The notes beneath the pieces were generated by a model. It saw only the letters and a program-made list of their open reading frames with translations. It did not search any database and was not told the DNA's origin. From Myxococcus xanthus (GTDB taxonomy: Bacteria > Myxococcota > Myxococcia > Myxococcales > Myxococcaceae): a DNA stretch of 64,000 bases. Numbering within the stretch: position 1 is the first letter of the stretch; every line of letters starts with the position of its first letter. The translations under genes and the position numbers were made by a program. The stretch is taken from contig NZ_CP017174.1 in NCBI RefSeq assembly GCF_006402735.1, positions 5,335,001-5,399,000 of the forward strand, given 5' to 3'. Below, in pieces: positions 27,310 through 29,590 of the stretch.

Positions 27310-28665
27310 CTATAACGCCGCGGTCCGCTGAATGCTCGAACCGGGGGGAACCGCCCAGAGGTACTCCCTGGCGGCCGCACGCGGAACCACCGGTGGCCAG
27401 AGGCCGGGGAGCCACAACACCTGCCCCTCGGCATCCGCCACCACCGGCCGCGTGGCCCGTGCTTCCGCGGGCACCCGAAAATCAACCAACACATCTTGAA
27501 GCTTGCGTTGTCCCCCAGCAGTGCACACCCGGTCGCCGGGGCGACGTGTCCGCACGGTCAGCGGCCAGCGCGTCCCGTCCCCGAGCGCCAGCCCGAGCAC
27601 GCCCGCAGGTGGAGGTCCGAACTCGACGGAAAAATTCCAACCCGTCCCCGCGAGCGCGCCCCGCGCCCCCGCGTGCTCCAGCCGAAGTTCAGCCGGTGGG
27701 GGGGGCGGCACCTGCCGCACGCAGCGCACCCGTCCGCTGGTCGCGCGCAGCACGTAGCCCCGCCCCAACGTGGCCGTGCCGCCCTGGGCCACCGCGCGCT
27801 GCACGCGGGCCAGCGTGGCCTCATCCACCACGGCCTCCGTGCTGGCCACCAGCCGGGCGAGCACCCGCCGGCGCAGCGCGGGCTCCAGCGCGCGCACGCC
27901 CACCGCATCCAGGGCGCCATCCTCCAGGCGCAACCGGTCGAAGGCCGCGTCCGCCATGGACGCCAGCAGCGACTCGTCCTCCGCGGCCACCCGCGCGAAG
28001 GCGGCCAGGTGCTTCTCCACGGCGAAACCGGCGGCGCGCGACAGAACGGGTAGCACTCCAAGGCGAACGCGCGTCCGGAAGTGGACAGGGTCGGCGTTCA
28101 TCGGGTCTGTCGTGTAGGCGACACCCTGTTCCGCCAGGAAGGCCACCACGTCCTCCCGCGTGCACGACAGCAGGGGGCGCACCAGTCCGGGGCGCGTTTC
28201 GTGGATGCCCACCGCGCCGCGCAGGGCGGTGCCTCGTGCCAGGCGCATGAGCAGCGTCTCCGCCTGGTCCGTGGCGGTGTGCGCGGTGGCCACCACCTCC
28301 AGGCCCCGCTCACGGCGGAGCGCCTCCAGCGTCGCGTAGCGAGCCTCCCTCGCGCGCGCCTCGATGCCAGCCCCTGGACGAAGTCGCAGCGCCTGGACGT
28401 GGCAGGGCAGCCCGTGAGCGGCCGCCAGGACGGACACCTGGCGGGCTTCCTCCGCCGCTTCGGGGCGCAGGCCATGGTCCAGCGAGGCCACCTCCACGCG
28501 AAGCCGGAGTCGCTCGGCGACGTGCGCGGTTCCCACCAGAAGGGCCGTGGAGTCCGCGCCGCCGGAAACGGCGAGCAGCACCGACCCTCCCTCGAGTCCC
28601 AGCCGGGTGTACGCCTCTTGAAGCGTCGTCGTCAGCAACTGCGTGGCGGAATCATGACGGGGCAT
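27310..28665 (-). CDS. tilS: tRNA(Ile)-lysidine synthase
   Basis: TilS attaches lysine to C34 of the AUA-reading tRNA(Ile), changing both its codon and amino-acid identity. The 451-residue enzyme has the PP-loop ATP pyrophosphatase motif VSGGADSTALL near residue 34. It is followed by SLDHGLRPEAAEEARQV and TAHTATDQAETLLMRLARG, and the C-terminal TilS domain contains RRPGDRVCTAGGQRKLQDVL. All are typical. The gene is upstream of ftsH on the same strand, a widespread tilS-ftsH linkage. Its 5' side is a 454-bp gene-free stretch in which its promoter should lie. The assignment is secure. Confidence 0.95.
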   Translation of the reverse strand: MPRHDSATQLLTTTLQEAYTRLGLEGGSVLLAVSGGADSTALLVGTAHVAERLRLRVEVASLDHGLRPEAAEEARQVSVLAAAHGLPCHVQALRLRPGAGIEARAREARYATLEALRRERGLEVVATAHTATDQAETLLMRLARGTALRGAVGIHETRPGLVRPLLSCTREDVVAFLAEQGVAYTTDPMNADPVHFRTRVRLGVLPVLSRAAGFAVEKHLAAFARVAAEDESLLASMADAAFDRLRLEDGALDAVGVRALEPALRRRVLARLVASTEAVVDEATLARVQRAVAQGGTATLGRGYVLRATSGRVRCVRQVPPPPPAELRLEHAGARGALAGTGWNFSVEFGPPPAGVLGLALGDGTRWPLTVRTRRPGDRVCTAGGQRKLQDVLVDFRVPAEARATRPVVADAEGQVLWLPGLWPPVVPRAAAREYLWAVPPGSSIQRTAAL

Positions 28666-28873
28666 CGGACCGCGGTGGAATGGAGTGTCGGGTGAGCGGG
28701 TTACAGAGGCACGTGCGGTTGAAGGCAGGGGGGCTGATTCTTATGATCGTCACAACATCGAATCGGCGTTGATGCGGTAGCGGAAATACACGCGGCCGAG
28801 AACGCTGTTCTTGAGACGGTCGAATTTTGAGCTGTTGGACCTAGGGGTCCCCCCCCTCCCCCTCTGGGTCCAC

Positions 28874-28905
28874 GGGTCCGCCTGGAGATTTCTCCTGGCG
28901 GTCCC
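28874..28905. repeat. 32-base imperfect palindrome
   Basis: The two halves GGGTCCGCCTGGAGAT and its mirror pair along their whole length except for three symmetric T-T mismatches, with only a two-base centre. It lies 11 bases before a terminator-type hairpin. Confidence 0.75.
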
Positions 28906-28916
28906 TCTTTCCGAAG

Positions 28917-28955
28917 CGCCCCGGACTTCCTCGTGGAGTCCGGGGCGTTTCCTTT
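28917..28955 (+). terminator. Rho-independent terminator-like hairpin without an upstream gene
   Basis: An 11-bp stem (CGCCCCGGACT with AGTCCGGGGCG, 28917-28927 and 28937-28947) closes a nine-base loop and is followed by TTTCCTTTTT. No plus-strand gene lies upstream, so it may end a small RNA or act as an attenuator 165 bp before the ribbon-helix-helix genes. Confidence 0.75.
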
Positions 28956-29119
28956 TTCGCGCATGGTTGCACAGCTTACGTGCAACTGGACGAGCAAGGG
29001 GACGGACCGTGCGACCTCGGAATGAGTCCTTGGAAACCGTTGACCCTCTTGGGAGTCTGTCGGATAACGGCCCAGGTGTGTTCAGGTCGTCACCCCGAAT
29101 CCGCCCCGGAGACCCAAGT

Positions 29120-29323
29120 ATGGCAGGCACCGACAAGCGCAAGCAGTCGCTGTACTTCCCCGAGGAGATGCTGAAGGAGATCCAGGAAGAGGCGACCCGT
29201 CAGGACCGCTCCCTTTCCTGGGTCGTGCAGCAGGCGTGGAAGATCGCCCGCGAGCGCATCAAGTCGTTCCCCGCCGTGAATGACGTGACTGGCGACGAGC
29301 GCCAGGACCCTCGGGAGGAGTAA
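29120..29323 (+). CDS. Small ribbon-helix-helix-type protein, first of tandem pair
   Basis: This 67-residue protein has the pattern of a short ribbon-helix-helix DNA-binding regulator. A basic start (TDKRKQ) leads into the strand SLYFPEEM, then helix LKEIQEEATRQDRSLSWVV and helix QQAWKIARERI. It matches a family of small myxobacterial proteins seen in tandem or in many copies. GGAG eight bases upstream supports the ATG at 29120; longer in-frame reading lacks a ribosome site. The next gene, a close paralogue, begins seven bases after the stop. The DNA target is unknown, and autoregulation through the hairpin-rich leader is possible but unproven. Confidence 0.85.
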   Translation: MAGTDKRKQSLYFPEEMLKEIQEEATRQDRSLSWVVQQAWKIARERIKSFPAVNDVTGDERQDPREE

Positions 29324-29329
29324 CGACGG

Positions 29330-29590
29330 ATGGCTACGACGGACCATCGTAAACAGAGTCTCTATTTCCCCGAGGACATGCTGGAGGAGATCCAGCGTGA
29401 GGCGACGCGGCAAGACCGCTCGCTGTCCTGGATTGTCCAGCAAGCGTGGAAGGTGGCGCGCGGGGACATCCGGAAGATGCCGTCGGTCAACGACGTGCTC
29501 AGCCCGCCTCTTCGTCCCGCGGCCCCCGCGCCCGCCCCGGCTCAGCCGGTGACGGCCGTCGCGGCGGCGCCTTCCGAAGAGCCCAAGTAG
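29330..29590 (+). CDS. Small ribbon-helix-helix-type protein, second of tandem pair
   Basis: The 86-residue paralogue of the preceding gene shares the core with only conservative changes: KQSLYFPEDMLEEIQREATR followed by QDRSLSWIVQQAWKVARGDI. It differs by a 28-residue C-terminal tail rich in Ala and Pro (APAPAPAQPV). The two genes overlap in function and probably arose by tandem duplication; they could form homo- or heterodimers. The gap between them is six bases, so translation is probably coupled. The proposed role is a DNA-binding regulator by fold only; nothing near them identifies a toxin partner, so a classical toxin-antitoxin assignment is not supported. Confidence 0.85.
   Translation: MATTDHRKQSLYFPEDMLEEIQREATRQDRSLSWIVQQAWKVARGDIRKMPSVNDVLSPPLRPAAPAPAPAQPVTAVAAAPSEEPK

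Follow-up and report, generated by a model that had tools for sequence, protein, structure and literature searches.

What lies in the gap between tilS and a tandem pair of ribbon-helix-helix (RHH) genes in Myxococcus xanthus? The window analysed here is a stretch of 64,000 nucleotides (C1:5335001-5399000) within the 9.3-Mb genome of this bacterium. A sequence-only reading of it had described a 454-bp gap holding a near-perfect palindrome and a plus-strand terminator hairpin, with no gene on that strand just upstream, and had offered two explanations, a small RNA and an attenuated leader for the RHH genes 165 bp downstream. The geography holds. The gap spans 28666-29119, the hairpin as first described ends at 28955, 165 bp short of 29120, where the first RHH gene starts, and tilS, the gene immediately upstream, points in the opposite direction. 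Judging from its sequence and that of its relatives, the locus is very probably a real, conserved RNA gene that lies outside Rfam. Its features and those of its surroundings are as follows:

27310-28665, minus strand: tilS (TIGR02432, over cut-off), divergent neighbour of the small RNA
28719-28747, plus strand: candidate promoter P1, TTGAAG-N17-TATGAT, sigma-70-like (promoter scan and genus alignment)
28782-28787 with 28806-28809, plus strand: candidate promoter P2, GGAAAT with TGTT, ECF-sigma-like; predicted transcription start near 28816
28836-28872, plus strand: stem-loop 1, a 12-bp stem of 28836-28847 with 28861-28872 (folds and covariation)
28874-28905, plus strand: stem-loop 2, the 32-base palindrome, 12 pairs (folds and alignment of 38 members)
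28905-28910, plus strand: linker CUCUUU between stem-loops 2 and 3; UCUUU (28906-28910) is invariant in the 38-sequence alignment A4
28913-28957, plus strand: stem-loop 3 and U tract, predicted intrinsic terminator (terminator scan and covariation)
29040-29068, plus strand: promoter-like motif of the RHH genes, TTGACC-N17-GATAAC, outside the small RNA
29120-29323, plus strand: RHH gene 1 (TIGR04563 family; Pfam RHH_5 only below cut-off)
29330-29590, plus strand: RHH gene 2 (TIGR04563 family; Pfam RHH_5 only below cut-off)

The earlier observation was correct and incomplete: palindrome and hairpin are stem-loops 2 and 3 of a plus-strand RNA with three stems, at about 28836-28957. The palindrome has two 14-nt arms around a 4-nt spacer, paired at 12 of 14 positions with two U-U mismatches, and the terminator hairpin has a stem of 17 pairs (28913-28951; 11 of them G-C) and a U tract at 28953-28957. 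Absent from that reading, as were the promoter-like motifs upstream, was stem-loop 1, the most conserved part of the RNA. Its loop of 13 nt (28848-28860) is C-rich, and a C8UC5 run occupies 28849-28862. The predicted fold of 28838-28957 reaches -73.3 kcal/mol, against -47.3 ± 3.9 for shuffled sequences (z -6.7; 0 of 200 as low). The terminator scanner returned 2 overlapping terminator-like sites in 2 kb, a count that is not significant alone because shuffles give 1.3 ± 1.2.

The deciding evidence for the predicted hairpins is comparative. Covariation across relatives had been suggested as a check on the stems, and the outcome favours them, since all three covary (alignments A3 and A4). Three alignments with members in common were used: A2, a MAFFT alignment of 57 sequences unfitted to structure; A3, 54 distinct rows aligned to a covariance model and hence fitted to structure; and A4, for which 38 family members were aligned by MAFFT and the structure was written from the window's fold. 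For stem-loop 1, both sides changed in 8 of 11 pairs in A3 and 3 of 12 in A2, with 99.7% and 99.6% of cells paired, against at most 70.3% and 69.7% when the partners were slid. Over all three helices of A4, 19 of 35 pairs changed on both sides and 95.6% of cells were paired, against at most 60.7% slid. Within that alignment stem-loop 2 is the weakest helix (8 of 12 pairs; 88.2% of cells), and stem-loop 3 shows such changes in 7 of 11 counted pairs with 99.3% of cells paired. G-U pairs favour the plus strand, since the complement would pair in fewer cells: 83.2% (A3) and 85.0% (A4), in a range of 82-85%, compared with 99.7% and 95.6% for the plus strand.

The loop core CCCCUCCC is present in every distinct row of A2 (57/57), A3 (54/54) and A4 (38/38), in searches that were seeded on the C-rich loop and could consequently miss relatives with a different one. 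Such a constant core on a stem that changes in concert is what a hairpin displaying a seed would be expected to show. The RNA further displays two attributes of C-rich-loop sRNAs: a stable hairpin with an unpaired run of at least four C (in a predicted fold that covariation supports), and what reads, by sequence only, as a stand-alone gene with its own terminator.

This RNA is distributed across an order. A DNA search found matches in 46 of 61 genomes, M. xanthus itself included, with close relatives 92-98% identical at the locus. A pattern search for stem-loop 1 matched 49 stretches of named genomes, in records titled Myxococcus, Pyxidicoccus, Corallococcus, Citreicoccus, Archangium, Hyalangium, Anaeromyxobacter and myxobacterial MAGs, together with MAGs labelled Proteobacteria or Deltaproteobacteria and one record labelled Comamonas. 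The name of this last record (Comamonas sp. KCTC 72670, L056) looks wrong, because its gene order is Myxococcus-like and its FtsH and TilS are 99% and 82% identical to those of the window. A covariance model, R1, built from 57 sequences and applied at E 0.001, matched 126 of 195 Myxococcota genomes, of which 125 belong to Myxococcales and one (G163) lies outside the order, within the class. Left without a match by the same model, under search filters that can lose weak ones, were 20 genomes listed in the order or family, including 7 with a completeness of 95% or more, and 49 unlisted Myxococcota genomes. The gene is single-copy in M. xanthus, where the next-best match has an E value of 0.89. 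In the outer-family members that were read, the RNA is shorter: stem-loop 1 is followed by a single hairpin at the position of stem-loop 2, directly before a U-rich run. One genome (G037, locus L046, 994-1165) has two tandem copies, and in both of them a separate hairpin follows stem-loop 1.

A motif upstream recurs across much of this range. Of 101 distinct homologues, 80 carry the pattern GGAA[TAC]-N16-20-GTT at 44-71 nt ahead of stem-loop 1, against an average of 2.3 and a maximum of 7 in 200 shuffles, a count that leaves out a weak second match in G048 with no tilS nearby (L155) and the second tandem copy in L046. Among 36 genus representatives, GGAA-N17-21-GTT occurs in 26 (1000 block shuffles: mean 0.5, maximum 4). 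Both sets of shuffle figures are optimistic, because the word was picked by eye after the alignments had been viewed and because the homologues are related; for these reasons a fairer test is the ranking of word pairs, in which GGAA...GTT comes first of 16,384 four-plus-three-letter pairs at the same spacing in the 36 representatives. These representatives were chosen by the analyst from 36 of 39 genera with a match (g30, g31 and g45 had none), and g29 is represented by L159, which has the motif, and not by L158 of the same genus, which lacks it. The motif is missing in 21 of the 101 homologues and 10 of the 36 representatives. It resembles the promoter consensus of ECF/EcfG sigma factors; a literature search found no ECF promoter of the GGAA...GTT form in Myxococcus. 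Farther upstream lies a sigma-70-like TTGAA...TATGAT element, shared by the genus and a large part of the family, and a loose TTG...-10-like pair is found in 44 of the 67 distinct family members with enough upstream sequence.

Our preferred explanation, which we regard as probable when taken as a whole mechanism, is that the locus encodes a trans-acting sRNA whose C-rich loop pairs with G-rich ribosome-binding sites. The plus-strand gene would produce an RNA of about 120-140 nt with its 3′ end at the U tract. Transcription would most likely start near 28816, from the ECF-sigma-type promoter GGAAAT...TGTT, with a possible second start of sigma-70 type near 28754. Stem-loop 1 would present the C-rich loop as the pairing site, and stem-loops 2 and 3 would provide protection of the RNA and termination. 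The loop would pair with GGGGAGGGG and similar ribosome-binding sites on several mRNAs and block their translation under whichever condition activates the sigma factor.

There are precedents, by analogy, for a functional C-rich loop: sX13 acts with such loops on G-rich mRNA motifs without Hfq, and M. xanthus has its own Pxr, a developmental sRNA that blocks fruiting-body development and depends on its C-rich first loop. As given in the available parts of the Pxr reports, a single base change in that loop abolishes function (PMC5684412, PMC5568312), and M. xanthus is reported to be without an hfq homologue (PMC5684412). The accessible portion of the work on sX13 of Xanthomonas describes C-rich loops that repress mRNAs carrying G-rich motifs near the start codon, with Hfq unneeded, and states that changing both partners failed to restore regulation (PMC3771888). 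As far as these passages allow a comparison, sX13 (RF02232) similarly has three stable stems and C-rich loops, but all three of its loops are C-rich, whereas the tilS-adjacent RNA has its long C run in the first loop and comes from a different phylum; the sX13 model scores 13.6 bits here against a cut-off of 50. Likewise, in what was available of the mycobacterial study, B11 (6C sRNA) has two C-rich loops, repression persisted when either was mutated singly, a G tract lies in the repressed 5′ UTR, and a title cited there speaks of mRNA binding by 6C through C-rich loops without RNA chaperones (PMC10470900). The likeness to 6C/B11 thus lies in the C-rich loops and the difference in there being two of them, in actinobacteria, to go by the same partial source; scanning 28500-29300 against Rfam at E values of up to 10 turned up no 6C.

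Targets were sought in four genomes. The pattern GGGGAGGGG-N2-10-ATG occurs 158 times, compared with 55 for the reversed pattern, which is weak support because any Shine-Dalgarno-like word would be enriched. The sites read comprised 32 of 40 in the M. xanthus genome, 42 of 42 in G137, 8 of 54 in G033 and 8 of 22 in G055. Among the 36 open frames that passed filters of length and GC3 in these genomes there was no conserved target, the sole matches being five copies of one gene in M. xanthus and one pair 23% identical. The five copies (L227, L244, L252, L253 and L264) look transposase-like by eye, and all of them share the start site GGGGAGGGGCCCATG, which complements the loop core without mismatch over 9 nt. 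A short membrane protein in G055 (L232), ATP synthase subunit c-like by eye, has the start site GGGGAGGGGGTCCCCATG and is a candidate target. Near-complements to 14 nt of the loop, with at most one mismatch, number 21 in the M. xanthus genome against 12 for the reversed pattern; one is the RNA gene itself, and the other 20, of which five are one repeat, form no convincing set of ribosome-binding or start sites. That G-rich repeat, found at at least five places (L099, L110, L111, L112 and L115) in blastn alignments through the site of 52-475 bp and 92-100% identity, includes GAGGGGGAGGGAGG, in which 13 of 14 bases match the complement of the loop. RNA made from the repeat, if there is any, might serve as a sponge for the sRNA. 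Because targets were sought and none was found, pairing with mRNAs is a step that we infer.

The loop could instead bind a protein, for sequestration or as a scaffold of a ribonucleoprotein, which we consider unlikely. A loop core kept in every distinct row of three alignments appears stricter than many antisense seeds need, and the limited search above, with its lack of a conserved mRNA target, also suits this reading. Yet GGA is the motif of CsrA, and a CsrA sponge is unlikely because the loop of stem-loop 1 contains no GGA. The C-rich-loop RNAs of the literature, moreover, act on G-rich mRNA sites, as far as the consulted parts of two papers go (PMC3771888, PMC10470900).

Might the sRNA beside tilS be a known one, or a relative of one? 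No Rfam family reached its cut-off in 28500-29300, nor in 12 relatives (matches up to E 0.5). The best match is the alphaproteobacterial ar14 (RF02344), at 31.0 bits in the window and 44.8 in L028, the only one of the 12 relatives matched at E 0.5 or better; both scores lie below the cut-off of 58.8. It resembles our RNA in its hairpin order and C-rich first loop, but that loop is CCUCCUCCC in the consensus.

Pxr (RF01812) is, like our RNA, myxobacterial and from the same genus, with three stem-loops and a first-loop C run broken once. That our RNA is Pxr or a recognisable paralogue is unsupported, as it scores 19.6 bits against a cut-off of 80, and Pxr proper is a separate gene of the same genome (C1:1327040; 129.2 bits). 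A far-diverged paralogue is also quite improbable. The C run of Pxr is C7AC4 at six Pxr loci rather than C8UC5, and R1 touches Pxr only over this run, at no more than 13.2 bits. All Pxr matches, in 93 of the 195 genomes, fall within a single family; the tilS-adjacent RNA, by contrast, spans the order. The two also differ in locus, neighbours and promoter: the Pxr gene lies downstream of a sigma-54 response regulator and has a sigma-54 promoter, according to the part of the report available (PMC5568312), whereas the present sRNA sits beside tilS with GGAA...GTT upstream.

The most constant neighbour is tilS, a fact that could point to a 5′ leader or antisense element of that gene. Divergent tilS lies upstream of the RNA in 92 of 95 loci (the remaining three have less than 500 bases of upstream sequence) and in 30 of another 31 (all but the weak match L155), in sets that include some genomes in both or twice and, among the 95, many from one genus. 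A tRNA suspected upstream of the RNA in L178 was not confirmed. Against such an element, the strand indicated by both the G-U pairs and the terminators is plus, so that the RNA points away from tilS. An open frame from 28811 that runs into the first RHH gene could similarly suggest a protein-coding element, but the C run and the stems differ in length by 1-2 bases, which breaks any frame, and the compensating stem changes indicate RNA rather than coding or DNA-only function. We hold this whole group of readings to be very improbable.

The RHH genes are less faithful companions. They lie within about 1.1 kb downstream of the RNA in 15 of the 31 further loci and were not found within the fetched flank in the other 16, in 15 of which tilS is beside the RNA. 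They are displaced to 2.0-2.5 kb in L051, L057, L084 and L085, again with tilS still in place, and were not found in the fetched flank of L081, L082, L087, L090 and L094, where the RNA persists beside tilS. Further, between terminator and RHH start codon, TTGACN-N17-GATAAC occurs in all 23 Myxococcaceae loci examined, a set chosen by the analyst that includes 15 from the genus Myxococcus; a loose match was seen in one of six outer-family loci. Between this motif and the first RHH gene (29069-29119), a stretch GGTGTGTTCAGGTCGTCACC is kept in most of the 23 loci and is possibly an operator for the RHH proteins. Of the two original proposals the small RNA thus stands, on order-wide conservation, three-stem covariation, terminator and promoter-like motif, and the attenuated leader, despite the shared strand and a terminator just ahead of the RHH genes, is scarcely credible, because these genes have a promoter-like motif to themselves and in many loci either lie farther off or were not found.

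The locus most likely represents a new RNA family of a known kind, the C-rich-loop sRNAs, in a model organism for which Pxr is the sRNA that has been studied. Among the matches listed, the literature on Myxococcus sRNAs concerns Pxr and contained nothing on the tilS-adjacent RNA; the search covered few subscription journals and no supplementary tables, and an earlier report is possible. The latter RNA is a second and more widely conserved one. It offers a clean example of turnover in a presenting stem with the seed itself kept constant throughout an order. It also provides an experimental handle on whether myxobacteria, reported to be without hfq, run a C-rich-loop regulon, and whether Pxr targets are common to both RNAs. 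We speculate, as a rather doubtful extension, that this is a core sRNA of Myxococcales, wider than Pxr in its phylogenetic spread, by which a stress signal received through an ECF sigma factor governs the translation of a set of genes whose ribosome-binding sites are G-rich. Its seed, a C run very similar to that of Pxr, would let it compete with Pxr, or stand in for it, on targets common to both. If that were true, signals of stress and of starvation would converge on shared mRNAs when the choice to form fruiting bodies is made.
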